A DNA stretch of 42,054 nt from Bacillota bacterium (lineage in GTDB: Bacteria > Bacillota > Limnochordia > Darwinibacteriales > Darwinibacteriaceae), in NCBI GenBank assembly GCA_012518735.1, contig JAAYRO010000003.1, positions 1 to 42,054 on the forward strand. Reading direction: 5' to 3'. How positions within the stretch are numbered: the stretch's first letter is position 1; each line of letters opens with the position of its first letter. The translations under genes were made by a program, and so were the position numbers. A model generated the notes under the pieces. It was not told where the DNA came from. It did no database searches and saw nothing but the letters and a program-made list of their open reading frames with translations. Of this stretch, positions 5,107-13,692 are shown piece after piece.

Positions 5107-5940
5107 CTAACCAAAAGCTTTTATTCCACTGTAGAGTTTGCTGATAACCAAGGTGACGGCAAACAATGCAGTTGCCACAAGAACTACCGTAGCTCCAGGC
5201 GGCGCCCCTAGATAGTATGAAATATACAATCCCCCAAAGGCAGACAAAAGGCCATTACCAGCCGCAACGGCCATCAGAGGACCAATCCGCTTAGTAACTA
5301 GAGAACCAGTGGCTGCAGGAGTAATTAATAAAGCCACGACTAAAATAACACCTACCGCCTGTATGGAAATGACAATTGCTACTGCAACAGCGGCAAGTAA
5401 CAAACTTTGGAAAAATGCAACAGGAAAACCAGCCGCCTCAGCACCAACCGGATCAAATGCAGCAAAGACAAAACGGGAGAAAAAAACCCACATCATAATA
5501 CCAATCAATACTGCCACTCCAATAATCAGCCAAATCTCCCGAGATTGTATGGCCATCACTGAGCCCAAAAGCAGACTGTTCAAGTCTCCTGCAAATCCTG
5601 GCAGAGCGGCTAAAATAATGATGCCTAACGCAAAAACGCCGGTAAATAGTATAGCTAATGCAGTGTCATCTTTTACCTTCGTCACACGAGTCAAAAACAC
5701 TACACCCAAAGCGGTGATCAAAGCAAAAACCAGTGCCCCAAAATATATGTTAACACCTATGAGCAGTGCGAAGGCAATGCCGGTAAAAGTCGTATGAGCA
5801 ATGGCGTCACCCATAAAGGCTAAACCCTTTAATACAACGAAAGTACCTACTACCGCAGCCACAACAGCGATAATTCCGGTTCCAATAAAAGCTCGAATCA
5901 TGAAAGAATACTGAAAGGGTTCCAAAAGGGTTTCAAACAT
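5107..5940 (-). CDS. Metal (zinc/manganese) ABC transporter permease, ABC-3 family
   Basis: 277 aa; GLAFMGDAIAHTTFTGIAFALLIG, QAVGVILVVALLITPAATG; operon with ATPase and metal-binding protein. Confidence 0.93.
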   Translation of the reverse strand: MFETLLEPFQYSFMIRAFIGTGIIAVVAAVVGTFVVLKGLAFMGDAIAHTTFTGIAFALLIGVNIYFGALVFALITALGVVFLTRVTKVKDDTALAILFTGVFALGIIILAALPGFAGDLNSLLLGSVMAIQSREIWLIIGVAVLIGIMMWVFFSRFVFAAFDPVGAEAAGFPVAFFQSLLLAAVAVAIVISIQAVGVILVVALLITPAATGSLVTKRIGPLMAVAAGNGLLSAFGGLYISYYLGAPPGATVVLVATALFAVTLVISKLYSGIKAFG

Positions 5941-6709
5941 CGTGAATCATAACCTCCCCGGTAGGTTGAACAGTGGGGAAATGGCGGGAAAAAAGTTTAG
6001 TCATGATGTCTTCCGTTAGTACCTCTCGCGGTACACCTTCAGCCACCACTTCACCATTCAGAGCTAAGACCTGATCAAAATGCTCAATTAGGCAGTCAAA
6101 ATCGTGAGTCGCTACAACTATCGTTCGCCCTTCTGATCGGAGCTTCTGGAATGTGCTGGCCAGTTCATGTTGGGCCTGCGCATCCAGTCCTGTGGCAGGC
6201 TCGTCTAAAAGAATAATATCGGCTCCTTGAGCTAGAGCACGGGCCAAAAACACTCTCTGCCGCTGCCCCCCACTTAGTGACCCAATCTGGGCCGACTCAA
6301 GATCACTAATTCCAAGGTGAGTTAAGGCTTGGCGAGCCAATTCATAATCCTGTGGTGTAAATCTCTCCCAGAATCGCTTACTGATAAGCCGTCCCTGTAG
6401 AACTACATCCAAAACTGAAATAGGAAAAGACCAATCTACTTCTTCTGCTTGAGAAAGATAAGCAACTTTTCCCCGTACTTCGCCAGGAGCTGAACCCATC
6501 AGCCTAATTTCTGCATTTTCATTAAGCGGCTTAACTAGTCCTACTAAAGCTTTCAGCAGAGTAGACTTACCTCCCCCGTTAGGACCAATAATTCCTGCTA
6601 AAGTTCCATCCAGTACTTCCCATGAGATACTGCTGATCACAGGACGACCATCATACCCTGCTTTTAGATCTCTTACTTCAATTGCTGGTTGTCTAGATCT
6701 GGCAATCAT
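5933..6709 (-). CDS. Metal ABC transporter ATP-binding protein
   Basis: Walker A GPNGGGKST, signature LSGGQRQRV, Walker B ILLDEP. Confidence 0.94.
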   Translation of the reverse strand: MIARSRQPAIEVRDLKAGYDGRPVISSISWEVLDGTLAGIIGPNGGGKSTLLKALVGLVKPLNENAEIRLMGSAPGEVRGKVAYLSQAEEVDWSFPISVLDVVLQGRLISKRFWERFTPQDYELARQALTHLGISDLESAQIGSLSGGQRQRVFLARALAQGADIILLDEPATGLDAQAQHELASTFQKLRSEGRTIVVATHDFDCLIEHFDQVLALNGEVVAEGVPREVLTEDIMTKLFSRHFPTVQPTGEVMIHDV

Positions 6710-7617
6710 TGCAGTGCCTCCACAAGTGTCTTTCCGTTCAAGTACATCATATCCAAATATGAGGATACATCTTGAGTGAAACTATCACTATACAGTATTC
6801 GCACACTACCCCCTACCTCATTGGTCAGAGCTTCAGCGTAACGATGCCCACTGCTGATTTGAGGTTCCATAAAAACTACAGGCTTATTATACGAACTGAG
6901 AAGCTTGACCATTTCAACCATATCACGGGCAGTCGGTTCACTCTGTGGATTGTGAACCAAAAACTCAACCACTGAAAACCCATAGCGATCTGCCAAATAA
7001 CTGAACGCGTTATGATAGGTAACCAGTACTCGATTCTCTGGGGGTATCTTGCTGATCTCTGTCAGCAGCCAAGCATCTAATTCCTCAAGCTTTTGAATGT
7101 AATCTGCAGCACGTTCTTGGAAATACTCTTCATTTTCTGGCACCAAAGCGCTAAGAGCGGCTGCCATTCTTTCAACATAGTGGATAGCATTAGGAACACT
7201 CAACCAAAAATGAGGGTCTCCTTCATGTTCATGCCCGTGGTTGTGTTCTCCTCCAGCAAGTGGAACCAGTCCCTCTGATAGAACAACAACAGGCGTATCA
7301 GGACTGGCTGCATTACTGATTAAACGATCCAGCCAAGCATCGAACCCTCCGCCATTGGAAAAAACAATGTGGGCCGATGCTACTGACCGAGCATCTCGAG
7401 GTGTAGGTTCCCATGAATGGGGATCTGCACCAATAGGCACTAAGGATATTACATCTGCCCGATCGCCCCCTACTTCCTGTGCGAAATCAGCCAAAATAGG
7501 AAACGTTGTCACAATTCTTATGTCACCAGCTTCTACCATAAAAGTGCAAGTACCTAGAAGCATTATAAGTACCAGCACACCTATTTTCGGTGCCCCATTT
7601 TTCACCATGTAATCCAC
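6706..7617 (-). CDS. Metal ABC transporter substrate-binding protein (ZnuA/cluster A-I type)
   Basis: Signal peptide, VGIGADPHSWEPTPRDA-like motif, His-rich loop HNHGHEHEGDPHFW, ENRVLVTYHNAFSYLADRYG. Start may be the internal MVKNGAPK. Confidence 0.92.
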   Translation of the reverse strand: MDYMVKNGAPKIGVLVLIMLLGTCTFMVEAGDIRIVTTFPILADFAQEVGGDRADVISLVPIGADPHSWEPTPRDARSVASAHIVFSNGGGFDAWLDRLISNAASPDTPVVVLSEGLVPLAGGEHNHGHEHEGDPHFWLSVPNAIHYVERMAAALSALVPENEEYFQERAADYIQKLEELDAWLLTEISKIPPENRVLVTYHNAFSYLADRYGFSVVEFLVHNPQSEPTARDMVEMVKLLSSYNKPVVFMEPQISSGHRYAEALTNEVGGSVRILYSDSFTQDVSSYLDMMYLNGKTLVEALQ

Positions 7618-7698: not shown

Positions 7699-8556
7699 TT
7701 AACCTTTCACTGCACCGTGAGTTAATCCTGATACAAGATATTTCTGCAGGAACATGAACAAAATCACAATGGGTAAGGCACCTAAGACAGATGCTGCTGC
7801 AAAAACCCCCCAGCGGTTGGCGTACTGATCGTGAATAAACAACTGCAGTCCTACAGCCAAAGTGTATTTACTGCTGGAAGTAATTAAGACACTGGCTAGA
7901 ATAAACTCGGAATAGGTGCCAATAAACTGCAGCAGAAAGACTACAGCTAGAATTGGACGAGCCAAAGGCAGGATAATCATATAAAAAGCTTGAAATGGAG
8001 TAGCTCCGTCAATCATAGCCGATTCCTCTAGGGAAGTAGGTATGGTATCAAAATACCCTTTCATCAACCACGCATTTACTCCCATAGCTCCACCTAGATA
8101 AACCATAATTAGTCCTGCATGTGTATTGATGCCTAATGCTGGAAACAGTTTTCCAATGTTAAGAATTAACAAGTAAACAGCTACTGCTGCCAGCATTTGA
8201 GGAAAGACTTGGACTAGTAGAGAAATGAATAAACCAGTCCGCCGTCCTTTGAACCGAAACCGGGAAAATGCATAAGCAGCCAACGATGTCATTGTAACGA
8301 CCAAAGCTGAGGTTATTAATGATACAATCACCGAATTCTTGATCCAAAGTGCAATAGGATGCTGCTGATTGGTAAACAACTCTCGGTAATTATCGAGACT
8401 GACTACTTTAGGAATTAGGCTCTGCCCAACTAAAGTATTCGCTGGGTTAAAAGATGCTGATATTACCCAGAATATAGGGAACAAAGCAAATACCAAAAAA
8501 ACCAAGAGGATTCCGTGGCGCCACAGGGCACCAAAAAACGTGTGCCGTCTATACAT
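7699..8556 (-). CDS. malG: Maltose/maltodextrin-type ABC transporter permease (MalG-like)
   Basis: 285 aa, six TM; EESAMIDGATPFQAFYMIILPLARP (EAA motif), YTLAVGLQLF, C-term LVSGLTHGAVKG. Confidence 0.88.
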   Translation of the reverse strand: MYRRHTFFGALWRHGILLVFLVFALFPIFWVISASFNPANTLVGQSLIPKVVSLDNYRELFTNQQHPIALWIKNSVIVSLITSALVVTMTSLAAYAFSRFRFKGRRTGLFISLLVQVFPQMLAAVAVYLLILNIGKLFPALGINTHAGLIMVYLGGAMGVNAWLMKGYFDTIPTSLEESAMIDGATPFQAFYMIILPLARPILAVVFLLQFIGTYSEFILASVLITSSSKYTLAVGLQLFIHDQYANRWGVFAAASVLGALPIVILFMFLQKYLVSGLTHGAVKG

Positions 8557-10111
8557 TTTTATTCACATCCTCCAAGGCTCCTGTAAATCGGAAATTAAAG
8601 AACGTAATGGTCCCTGTGATCAAGAAAATAATCAACGTTACTGCCGATGCCAATCCGTAATCTACACCACGACCACTCTCAAATGCTAATCGATAGGTAT
8701 AAGAGATTAGAATATCGGTGTAACCTGCAGGAGTCTGAGCCCCAGGGATGGGCGGTCTTCCTCTAGTCAGAAGATAAATCACAGAGAAATTGTTGAAATT
8801 AAACGAAAAAGATGCGACCAAAAGAGGTGCCACACTCACCATAAGAAGGGGTATGGTAATGTAGCGAAACTGCTGCCAAGAAGAAGCTCCATCTACAACG
8901 GCAGCTTCATACATTTCAGAACCGATACTTTGAAGAGCACCTAAACAGATGATCATCATGTATGGAAAACCCAACCACAAATTCAAAATAACCAATGCTA
9001 TTTTTGCCCAAAACGGATCCTGCAGCCAGGGTACAGATGAATTGATAGTAGCTTGGAGAATCTGGTTAATTACACCTACTTCAGTATTAAACAAACCTCG
9101 CCAAATCAAAGCTGAAATAAATGCAGGGATAGCGTACGGTAGAATGAGCAAAGAACGATAGGCTTTGCGAAAACGTAAATAAGGGTCGTTGAGTAGAATA
9201 GCCAGAAACAACCCTACTGCAAACGTAGTGGCAACACTGAGTAAAGCCCATTGAACTGTCCACAGGAAAACACGGGCAAAAGGACCTGTAATCTGGCGAT
9301 TCGTAAAGAGCTTCCGGAAATTTGAGAGTCCTATAACGGTGCGAAAACCAGGAGTTAATCGGGTGCCATCGGCTGCCTGGAAATAGCCGTTAGATGGTTT
9401 ATAAACAATCCCCGTTTGTAGATCCACTAATTCATCAGTGTTGGGCTCATAGACATACTGACGCTCATAAATAGCAAAGCTGTTCACATTGCGCATCCGC
9501 AGCTGTTTTCCATCACCACAGTCAAAACCGATTGCAGAAAGCTCATTGGTCATGCGGACCAAGTCTCTCTTTTCCAACAGAATATAATCATCTAAGAATT
9601 CTAGTTTTGGATCATCTAAGGAAACACTGTCAATCGTACTCTTATGCCCTAACAAGAGCTCACCGTCAGGCCGTGTAAACAGAAAAGCAAGCTCTCCTTG
9701 ATCATTTATGTATGCCTCAAATGCATAGCTTTCTGCATCTCGATCGATGACAAATTTCTCTTCGAATTGGGCAATCACTTGTTCTTTGGACAGAATATTC
9801 CCTGTTCCGTAATTGGTTAGAGAGATATATACCGTATATACAATAGGATAGACAACCAACAGAAACATAAAGAAAGTAGCGGGCAGTAAGTATCGAAATG
9901 GGTAACCACCAGGTAGAATAAAGACAATGTTCACAATGAGTGCTCCGAGTAGTAAGAGTGCCAGAATCACGTAGGATTGGTGGGAAATCAAGAATAAAGC
10001 ACTCCAAATAACGATCACATTTAGAACAGCCAAACCTAATCCTTTTAGAACTTTGGACAGTATTGAACCACGCACGCTATCACACCCATTCTTGAAATCA
10101 CTGTCCACCAT
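8549..10111 (-). CDS. malF: Maltose/maltodextrin-type ABC transporter permease with large extracytoplasmic loop (MalF-like)
   Basis: 520 aa; EAAVVDGASSWQQFRYITIPLL (EAA loop), NFNNFSVIYLLTRGRPP, large P2-like loop between TM segments. Confidence 0.88.
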   Translation of the reverse strand: MVDSDFKNGCDSVRGSILSKVLKGLGLAVLNVIVIWSALFLISHQSYVILALLLLGALIVNIVFILPGGYPFRYLLPATFFMFLLVVYPIVYTVYISLTNYGTGNILSKEQVIAQFEEKFVIDRDAESYAFEAYINDQGELAFLFTRPDGELLLGHKSTIDSVSLDDPKLEFLDDYILLEKRDLVRMTNELSAIGFDCGDGKQLRMRNVNSFAIYERQYVYEPNTDELVDLQTGIVYKPSNGYFQAADGTRLTPGFRTVIGLSNFRKLFTNRQITGPFARVFLWTVQWALLSVATTFAVGLFLAILLNDPYLRFRKAYRSLLILPYAIPAFISALIWRGLFNTEVGVINQILQATINSSVPWLQDPFWAKIALVILNLWLGFPYMMIICLGALQSIGSEMYEAAVVDGASSWQQFRYITIPLLMVSVAPLLVASFSFNFNNFSVIYLLTRGRPPIPGAQTPAGYTDILISYTYRLAFESGRGVDYGLASAVTLIIFLITGTITFFNFRFTGALEDVNKNV

Positions 10112-10139
10112 AGGCCCTTATAAAAGGACCTATGGTGGA
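10104..10139. promoter_or_regulatory. Intercistronic hairpin between malE-like and malF-like genes (candidate attenuator/RNA stabiliser)
   Basis: Perfect 11-bp arms TCCACCATAGG ... CCTATGGTGGA around a 14-nt centre, in the malE-malF intergenic gap; no clear T tract. Confidence 0.65.
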
Positions 10140-10146
10140 ACGAAAA

Positions 10147-11346
10147 CTACATACTAGCCTCGATTGTCTGAACGATCATCTCTACAGCATCTTCCAGCGC
10201 TTTTCTTGGTGTAGATTGCTGGTTGATAATAAGCTCAATTGCGTCTCCCCACGCTGTCCAAACAGCATTCATTGCAGGAATAGCTGGCATAGGTACACCC
10301 TCAGAGGCTGCCAGCATTACACCGAGCATATCTGGATCCTCGTTGATGACTTCAGCTGCAGGAAGGAAAGCAGTTGGGCGAGGATCTCTCTCAAACAGAG
10401 CAAGCATTGTTTCCTCAGTGCCTACAAACTCATTTAGGAATATGTTCGCCAGCATCTTGTTTTCACTAAATGCACTGACCATAAATCCCTGTGCTCCTAC
10501 AAATGGTCTGCCGAAACTCCCTTCAATGGATGGAATCCGAGTAAATCCATAGTTGACCCCAGCAGAACGCACATCTTCAAATGCCCAGGGACCTGTAATC
10601 ATAAAGGCCGCTTCACCATTTTGGAACAGACTCATCATGGTGTCATAGGTAGTTGCTCGAGCCATAATACCATCGTCTAAGAGTCTTTCGAATAACTCTA
10701 GACCTTTCACCGATCCTTCATTAGCTAAGCCCACATCTAGAGGATTGAGAACACCATTTTCGTCTTCACCAAATACATAGCCGCCTAACGCGCTAAAGAA
10801 GGGGAACGTATGATATGGATCTGGTTGGGGCATAACAAGACCGTATTTCCCTTCAGCCATAAGTTTGTTACCCACCTCAATCAGCTCTTCAAAACTCACT
10901 GGCGGCTCTTCTCCAATCAAGTCCTTATTGAAGAAAAGACCAATGGATTCAATGGCATAGGGAAGTCCATAGCGGCCCCCTTCCCAAGTAAAGACATTAA
11001 GAGCCGACTCAACATAAAGAGATTCGTCTTCAATGTCAATTTCCTCAATCAAGCCATCCGTAACAAGCTGGCCTAACCAGTCATGGGCGCCAATGATGAT
11101 ATCAGGACCCTCACCAGTTGGTGCCACAACACCTAAATTATCCCGAATTTCCCCAAATGGCATTTCCTGGACCGTCACAGGAATACCGTACTCCACAACA
11201 AAGTCAATGGCAATATCAGCAAGAATGGGAGCACGCACTCCGTCAGCCCAAATAAGCAGTTCACCAGGAACTGAAGCGAAAACAGGCGCAGCAATAACAA
11301 GTGTTAACATAACTACCCACAGATGGAGTGAAAATCGTCTCATCAA
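10147..11346 (-). CDS. malE: Maltose/maltodextrin-type ABC transporter substrate-binding protein (MalE-like)
   Basis: 399 aa; signal peptide ending VFAS, ELLIWADGVRAPILADIAIDF, MITGPWAFEDVRSAGVNYGFTRIPSIEG. Confidence 0.9.
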   Translation of the reverse strand: MMRRFSLHLWVVMLTLVIAAPVFASVPGELLIWADGVRAPILADIAIDFVVEYGIPVTVQEMPFGEIRDNLGVVAPTGEGPDIIIGAHDWLGQLVTDGLIEEIDIEDESLYVESALNVFTWEGGRYGLPYAIESIGLFFNKDLIGEEPPVSFEELIEVGNKLMAEGKYGLVMPQPDPYHTFPFFSALGGYVFGEDENGVLNPLDVGLANEGSVKGLELFERLLDDGIMARATTYDTMMSLFQNGEAAFMITGPWAFEDVRSAGVNYGFTRIPSIEGSFGRPFVGAQGFMVSAFSENKMLANIFLNEFVGTEETMLALFERDPRPTAFLPAAEVINEDPDMLGVMLAASEGVPMPAIPAMNAVWTAWGDAIELIINQQSTPRKALEDAVEMIVQTIEASM

Positions 11347-11558: not shown

Positions 11559-11855
11559 TCAGCACTGACTGCTGTGGTTTGTTTTTATGGAAAACCCTTT
11601 GCCAAAAATGGTTTTCCGATAATCCACAACTGCGCCTTGGGCGTACTTCATGGCTTGAGGGTCCAACAAGAACTTAAATCCGGAGCTTTCTACAACCGTA
11701 TCTCCCATTTCTTCTGTCTCTTCCAGAGACATTCCAAAATTAGGACCGCCTCAACCAAAACCATGAACAAAAATGCGAATCATAGTTACATCAGGTGCTG
11801 CTTGATCCAGCAATTCACGGAGCATTGCCTGAGCTTTGGGAGTAACTGTGACCAT
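11559..11855 (-). CDS. HesB/IscA-like selenoprotein (in-frame TGA at 11751-11753 read as selenocysteine)
   Basis: Not in the ORF track because of the internal TGA. Reads MVTVTPKAQAMLRELLDQAAPDVTMIRIFVHGFG(U)GGPNFGMSLEETEEMGDTVVESSGFKFLLDPQAMKYAQGAVVDYRKTIFGKGFSIKTNHSSQC*. ATG at 11855 is preceded by a strong SD (AGAGGAGG). U is at codon 35, where HesB/IscA proteins carry the conserved Cys. SECIS-like hairpin at 11715-11731. Confidence 0.88.
11704..11744 (-). promoter_or_regulatory. Candidate bacterial SECIS element
   Basis: Minus strand after TGA: 19 nt, then TGTCTC-TGGAA-GAGACA (perfect 6-bp stem, 5-nt loop with G at loop position 2). The loop starts 26 nt after the TGA. Possible lower stem CCUAAUUU/AAAUGGG with one bulge. 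Confidence 0.78.
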
Positions 11856-12225
11856 GAAAAATCCTCCTCTTAACATTTATCAGTCCACAACAAACTAGAA
11901 CGGCAAGTGCTGCAAAGGTACCTAATCGACCACCCACTCCCACTAGACAAGCACGACATCCGTAAACTATGACTGCACACAAAACGCTAACAACAGCCAT
12001 TTCTAATTGGTTCGTCACCCGAACACAGGAAGACATGGTGGCATAAGATACACATGTACAGACCCCTGCTAAGAATATACCAGATTCATGCAGACGTGGC
12101 AAGAGCAGCCCTGACAGCAGAGCTATCCAAGCAGACACTTCCACGCTCGATAATCCTCGATGATTTCGAAGCCAGAAACCGAAGGCTCCAGCAGGAATAC
12201 TTACAAAAAAGCTCACCCACAACAT
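11815..12225 (-). CDS. Hypothetical Cys-rich membrane protein, paralogous to the upstream gene product
   Basis: 136 aa; hydrophobic segments, GVGGRLGTFAALAVLV matches GIGGRLGTMAATAVIV of the neighbour; several Cys (VCTCVSYATMSSC, VLCAVIVYGCRACLV, VCC). The 3' end overlaps the HesB-like gene start by 41 bp. Confidence 0.65.
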   Translation of the reverse strand: MLWVSFFVSIPAGAFGFWLRNHRGLSSVEVSAWIALLSGLLLPRLHESGIFLAGVCTCVSYATMSSCVRVTNQLEMAVVSVLCAVIVYGCRACLVGVGGRLGTFAALAVLVCCGLINVKRRIFHGHSYSQSSGNAP

Positions 12226-12226
12226 C

Positions 12227-12727
12227 CTACCGTCCCCCCACTCCCAGTAAGATTGTTACAATGACTGCTGTTGCTGCCATGGTACCAAGACGCCCACCAA
12301 TTCCTTCCCAGACACCCTCCATCACTTCATACAGCAGACCAGCAAACAGTCCAGCCAAACCTGCTGTCCAAATCGTAGGTAAGACTTCTGGCGAACTCAT
12401 TCCGACAAAAGCACCTGTGTAGACAATTAATGAGTACCGATTCTTAAGAAATTTACTAGCTAAGAGACCGACTACTCCAGATGCGACAGTGGGTCCCAAA
12501 TTGGAAACGCTGCTCAAGGCATACACTATTACCGAGCCTACACAACCTAAAACGGCTGCTGTTATCAGCTCACGCCAATCCTTTTCATAACTAAATCCCA
12601 AGCCACAGCCTACTAGACCAAGACCACTTAGGAAGATAACGAATGAATGACCTCGACCCAACATGCCGTGGATCAGTTCCAAAGCAGCAACAATCAGCGG
12701 TATTGCCATAAGGATCCACTTCCACAT
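12227..12727 (-). CDS. Hypothetical polytopic membrane protein
   Basis: 166 aa, MWKWILMAIPLIVAALELIHGMLG..., multiple hydrophobic segments; tandem with the homologous downstream ORF (stop and next ATG one base apart, TAGGATG). Confidence 0.7.
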   Translation of the reverse strand: MWKWILMAIPLIVAALELIHGMLGRGHSFVIFLSGLGLVGCGLGFSYEKDWRELITAAVLGCVGSVIVYALSSVSNLGPTVASGVVGLLASKFLKNRYSLIVYTGAFVGMSSPEVLPTIWTAGLAGLFAGLLYEVMEGVWEGIGGRLGTMAATAVIVTILLGVGGR

Positions 12728-12741
12728 TGGGTCTCACCTCA

Positions 12742-13692
12742 TTAAGGAAGGCTGCTTTGAAGTACGATCCCTTTTCCGTCTAATACATAACGTTTTAGAC
12801 AGGCTGGAACCAAACACGACTGACCCTTCCCAATTTTCGTTGTAGAACCATCGGCTGTAATATGAGCATCCCTATCTACGCTCGTGACTATGTGAAAACT
12901 GTCCTCCAACTCTATTGTCTTAGTGGTGGGCCCATTATGAACCTGAAGCAGAAAATGCTGACTGCATCTGGCAAAATGGTAATCCATAGAATAGGCTTCT
13001 TGGGAAAAGTCGATGACTTCTAAGGCTTGAGTAATGTGTAAATCACGGGGTTGTCCCTGATCGTCCACACGATCCCAATCGTAAACTCGATACGTCGTAT
13101 CAGAATTCTGCTGAACTTCGGCAACAACGACCCCCGCGCCTAATGCGTGAACTAGGCCAGCTGAAATAGGATATATCTCGCCTGCTTTTACCTGAACCTT
13201 ATTTAGACAATCTAAAATTGCTGAACCACCTTTTTTTACGGCTTCGGAAAAGCGTTCCCGAGTTACTCCTGGGCGAAGACCCCAGATTATCCACGCGCCA
13301 GGATCGCTGTGGACAATGTACCACATCTCTGTTTTGCCAAGTTCGCCCGGAATGTTCAAAGCAGCGTATTCGTCATCTGGATGTACTTGTACTGATAGAT
13401 CCTGCCGTGCATCGATAAACTTTAACAGCAGAGGAAATTTACCGTCCTTCTGCCTTCCCTTAAAACCGACCAAATCGATACCATAAAGATTCACTAATTC
13501 CTCTAAGGATCTGCCGGCCAATTCCCCCTGAGCAACTACACTTACACCATTGGGGTGAGCGGCAACATCCCAGCTTTCTCCAATAGGGCCAGACGGGAGA
13601 GAACGTCCAAAAAGCTCTGCAAACCTCCGCCCTCCCCACAGTTTCTCTTTATAAATAGGATGAAATGTCAATGGATATAACTTCGGTTTCAA
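12742..13692 (-). CDS. manA: Mannose-6-phosphate isomerase, type I (class I, Firmicutes type)
   Basis: 316 aa; YPLTFHPIYKEKLWGGRRFAELF, LSVQVHPDDEYA, GKTEMWYIV, VQQNSDTTYRVYDWDR. Confidence 0.94.
   Translation of the reverse strand: MKPKLYPLTFHPIYKEKLWGGRRFAELFGRSLPSGPIGESWDVAAHPNGVSVVAQGELAGRSLEELVNLYGIDLVGFKGRQKDGKFPLLLKFIDARQDLSVQVHPDDEYAALNIPGELGKTEMWYIVHSDPGAWIIWGLRPGVTRERFSEAVKKGGSAILDCLNKVQVKAGEIYPISAGLVHALGAGVVVAEVQQNSDTTYRVYDWDRVDDQGQPRDLHITQALEVIDFSQEAYSMDYHFARCSQHFLLQVHNGPTTKTIELEDSFHIVTSVDRDAHITADGSTTKIGKGQSCLVPACLKRYVLDGKGIVLQSSLP

Follow-up and report, generated by a model that had tools for sequence, protein, structure and literature searches.

The HesB-like selenoproteins form an established family (Zhang et al. 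2006, PMC1794560), with selenocysteine (Sec, U) in the motif UxGP (2026 review, PMC13188914). Methanococcus maripaludis has a HesB-like selenoprotein, MMJJ_08070, which was found via mutagenesis and 75Se labelling and whose function was called unclear (PMC11097638). By fold, the closest systems are the A-type carriers IscA, SufA and ErpA. The window examined here, the whole stretch of 42,054 nucleotides from a Bacillota bacterium, holds a gene that standard calling makes look broken. The evidence very strongly supports reading it as an intact gene for a selenoprotein of the HesB-like (UxGP) family, and the probability that its in-frame UGA is decoded as Sec is put at about 0.96. The first-pass annotation had rightly taken the class as already described. 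The gene and its signals are:

11562..11855, minus strand: coding sequence of the hesB-like selenoprotein; 98 residues with Sec at 35; ATG at 11855, stop codon TGA at 11561-11559
11751..11753, minus strand: in-frame TGA, codon 35, in the Sec reading; aligns with the Cys of Cys-type homologues and is TGA in 11/11 aligned class members
11863..11868, minus strand: Shine–Dalgarno AGGAGG, 7 nt 5' of the ATG, assigned from the sequence
11715..11731, minus strand: SECIS hairpin UGUCUC-UGGAA-GAGACA, loop at 11725-11721; covaries and is almost fully paired across 38 relatives

The first-pass annotation had given the same coordinates and frame, the internal TGA in the context HGFG-U-GGPNFG, 63 further codons before the terminal TGA, and a strong Shine–Dalgarno sequence; all of this holds. 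It is also correct that standard ORF calling misses the gene, which is cut into two. The internal TGA had been placed at the conserved Cys of the family, and the homologues do carry Cys or Sec at this position. The possibility that the terminal TGA encodes a second Sec was rejected, and this codon is taken as the stop: the sequence beyond it does not resemble the family, and most relatives finish at the same Cys, with unrelated sequence past their stop codons.

Translated with Cys at the TGA, the protein has a PF01521 match (E=5.9e-10; 39.8 bits against a cut-off of 26.3) and lies above the curated cut-off of TIGR00049, the Fe–S assembly accessory subfamily (68.5 vs 58.8). It is the sole PF01521 protein found in its genome. 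Its scores for TIGR01911 (52.2 vs 66.35), whose cut-off is passed by no genome of the class, and for NF038090 (53.7 vs 85) are below the curated cut-offs; hence, these models alone would not name the protein. The equivalog cut-offs for IscA, SufA and ErpA are likewise all above its scores. An AlphaFold2 model, for which eight Cys-type homologues were supplied along with the window protein, is confident (pLDDT 86.9), and the best PDB matches are IscA, SufA and their relatives. TM-scores to the query are 0.73–0.82 for A-type carriers; for E. coli IscA, the value is 0.81–0.82.

The sequence shows the in-frame UGA at the position where the IscA/HesB fold has its first conserved Cys, followed by a conserved bacterial-type SECIS hairpin, in a host with full Sec machinery. 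By established knowledge, SelB would bind this hairpin and bring Sec-tRNA(UCA) to the UGA, and translation would end at the terminal UGA.

The hairpin has a 6-bp stem and a 5-nt loop, UGGAA, which starts 26 nt after the TGA (25 nt between), with G at loop position 2. By the published criterion, a bacterial SECIS hairpin lies 16–37 nt downstream and has G in the first two loop positions; the window hairpin, with 25 nt to its loop, agrees with this. The perfect stem, loop and model fit claimed in the first pass were therefore confirmed. The RNA fold that it had proposed as a check did not single out the window hairpin: in isolation, the strand is no more stable than its shuffles (z −0.65) and prefers another pairing. 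If synonymous codons for the same protein are drawn at random, 1.6% of the draws have a perfect stem with G at that place, and 25% have some hairpin of at least 6 bp that fits the model. Taken alone, the window hairpin is thus unexceptional; it is conservation that lifts it far above chance. The full stem is present in 36 of 38 TGA-bearing relatives, and 33 of these 36 also have G as the second loop nucleotide; codon resampling gives 0.4 on average and 3 at most. Across the 38 relatives, 99.1% of cells are paired, and double (compensatory) changes occur at three of the six pairs, with the third pair seen as AU, UA, GU, UG and GC. If the proteins are kept and synonymous codons redrawn, pairing has a mean of 54% and a maximum of 63%; sliding the partner by 1–3 columns lowers it from 99.1% to 28–52%. 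A covariation score as high was obtained in 0/500 shuffles, a control that leaves relatedness in place; the slid control also retains relatedness and still separates clearly. Synonymous change is reduced in codons +1 to +16, where the hairpin lies (pS 0.44 vs 0.82 beyond). Three related members (L094, L096, L099) have UUGUA as their 5-nt loop, in which G is the third nucleotide, or the second if the closing U–A pair forms; this departs from the common UGG loop.

Host Sec machinery, implied by the first-pass annotation, is indeed found in the assembly that contains the window, which is 97% complete, with 2.26 Mb in 236 contigs. selA and selB are adjacent on contig C186, with tRNA-Sec (anticodon UCA) just beyond, next to selB; selD is on contig C18. 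The genome has a second selenoprotein gene, for the well-known selenoprotein GrdA, with TGA at the CxxU site (CFV-TGA). This gene (G000 contig C63:4142-4576, L135) is also split by standard ORF calling. FdhA was sought in the same genome as a further selenoprotein and not found, and SelD was rejected as one, with Cys read at the checked site. A cysteine-desulfurase-like (class V aminotransferase-like) frame upstream of selD (L019) was noted by eye only.

What the protein does is approached through its residues and its gene neighbours. In the window, the relevant neighbours are:

11815..12225, minus strand: upstream ORF without a Pfam or NCBIfam match (neighbour family F13); 3' end overlaps the hesB start
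12227..12727, minus strand: upstream ORF without a Pfam or NCBIfam match (neighbour family F14); conserved neighbour
12742..13692, minus strand: manA-like mannose-6-phosphate isomerase (TIGR00218 above cut-off; synteny); conserved upstream neighbour
5107..7617, minus strand: ZnuA/ATPase/ABC-3 metal-uptake transporter; in relatives, it lies immediately downstream of hesB

The gene order in the window's clade is pgi, manA, the F14 and F13 ORFs, hesB and then the transporter. ZnuABC-type genes are near hesB in five genomes, including that of the window, and only 15–16 nt lie between hesB and the znuA-like gene in G001 and G009. In the window, malE-malF-malG-like genes (7699-11346) separate hesB from the ZnuABC-type operon; they were probably inserted, since the relatives examined are without them at that place. 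The overlap of the F13 ORF with the hesB start, which has a counterpart in G001 and G009, suggests translational coupling. Both upstream ORFs (11815-12727) appear hydrophobic by eye, and are conserved upstream of hesB in the same two genomes. In G030 and G035, genes for a ferritin-like protein and encapsulin (PF04454) are directly upstream of hesB-Sec (L078:2492-4717, L079:4426-6553), with a Fur-family gene 42–62 nt downstream; G028 also has a Fur-family gene downstream of hesB. Literature linking HesB or a selenoprotein with encapsulin was sought with incomplete coverage, and nothing relevant was found. In a separate clade of seven genomes (L080, L082, L083, L114, L115, L117, L118), hesB-Sec adjoins selA/selB, in the order selD-selA-selB-hesB in four; hesB-selA-selB is also seen.

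On balance, the product is best viewed as A-type-carrier-like, in which Sec35 and Cys98 would bind iron, an Fe–S cluster or some other soft metal in the context of metal homeostasis, although this is favoured only by a little. Sec35 occupies the position of the first ligand in the IscA fold, and the C-terminal Cys-x-Cys is reduced to one Cys; the three-Cys IscA site is thereby incomplete, with Sec35 and Cys98 only. The link to metals comes from the neighbour genes only. A tentative alternative, somewhat less probable, accepts the selenoprotein but regards it as a redox enzyme (with a Sec35–Cys98 selenenylsulfide) or an accessory of selenium metabolism, and not as a metal carrier. Sec is usually catalytic, and the C-terminal Cys is invariant in the class alignment, accompanying Sec in 11/11 members; the selA/selB neighbours of the seven-genome clade point the same way. 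The fold, however, is that of IscA carriers, among which we know of no oxidoreductase, and the window's own clade adjoins metal genes. A metal or Fe–S carrier is therefore favoured over a redox enzyme. The metal-gene neighbours, coming from one clade, may reflect a single event, as perhaps may the selA/selB neighbours; because the neighbour arguments thus stem from two clades, a metal or Fe–S role is the best reading but unproven, whereas Sec decoding is near certain. A more specific and rather unlikely extension of the carrier reading is that Sec-HesB of this lineage might serve selenol-dependent handling of iron (or zinc), together with an encapsulated-ferritin store, a Fur-family switch and a ZnuABC-type importer. 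If true, this would be the first defined pathway for HesB-like selenoproteins.

It is highly improbable that the TGA is a premature stop, whether in a decayed pseudogene or as a sequencing error for TGC/TGT. A lone genome could look so, and the split made by standard ORF calling would be expected, but the TGA is found at the same codon in 10 further genomes of the class. This conservation in independent genomes argues strongly against sequencing error, which the first-pass annotation had named as a possible refutation; none of the refuting outcomes that it listed was obtained on checking. The codons before and after the TGA are both under purifying selection (pN/pS 0.52 and 0.49, respectively, in 11 aligned class members), and the hairpin that follows covaries. 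TGA-containing relatives also occur in 74 of 399 sampled genomes of the phylum, a survey in which the TGA position was checked by eye only for relatives fetched as loci; at this frequency, the earlier description of the family as rare is too strong for the phylum. selA is present in 70 of these 74 genomes and in 187 of the 325 others (Fisher p = 3e-11). Three of the four TGA-HesB genomes lacking selA are only 63–79% complete; the fourth, G250 (94% complete), has a TGA-containing match and no selA match. In a set of 61 genomes of relatives, a selA match was obtained for each of the ten carriers, with two of these matches shortened by contig ends. Organism-wide reassignment of TGA to an ordinary residue (as in code 4 or 25) would equally let the frame go on through the TGA, but has next to no likelihood, given the Sec tRNA and SelB, the presence of Cys and not Trp or Gly at the site in homologues, and two conserved transporter genes of the window (5933-6709 and 6706-7617) that end in TGA at family length, so that the code is otherwise standard.

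Cys-type relatives, mostly from Desulfosporosinus, nest inside the Sec forms in a tree of only 98 columns, and largely retain the hairpin, with all six pairs in 5/10. Nesting and retained hairpins fit a change from Sec to Cys; the fossil SECIS reported for the Desulfitobacterium hafniense HesB-like protein (PMC1794560) agrees with this picture. Fossil SECIS-like hairpins after the Cys codon were seen in the Cys-type HesB genes L002-L010 and L101.

By motif, fold, SECIS and host machinery, the window protein belongs to the HesB-like selenoproteins, a family itself already known. The finding corrects a gene split by standard calling and extends this family to a clade below curated cut-offs, and the neighbour genes offer a testable lead on selenoproteins described as functionally unclear. 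With the described family, the window protein shares the fold, Sec in UxGP (here UGGP), a SECIS directly downstream, the same Sec-decoding host type (including Clostridia) and the same interchange of Sec and Cys. It differs in that its clade falls under the TIGR01911 and NF038090 cut-offs and its lineage has metal-gene neighbours of its own, and the C-terminus of most class members has a single Cys. MMJJ_08070 is likewise a HesB-like selenoprotein, the likeness being one of description and not of sequence; it is archaeal, and the archaeal SECIS lies outside the coding region. IscA, SufA and ErpA have the PF01521 domain, the predicted fold and the place of the first Cys in common with the window protein, in which, unlike these carriers, Sec stands for the first Cys and one Cys takes the place of the C-terminal Cys-x-Cys.
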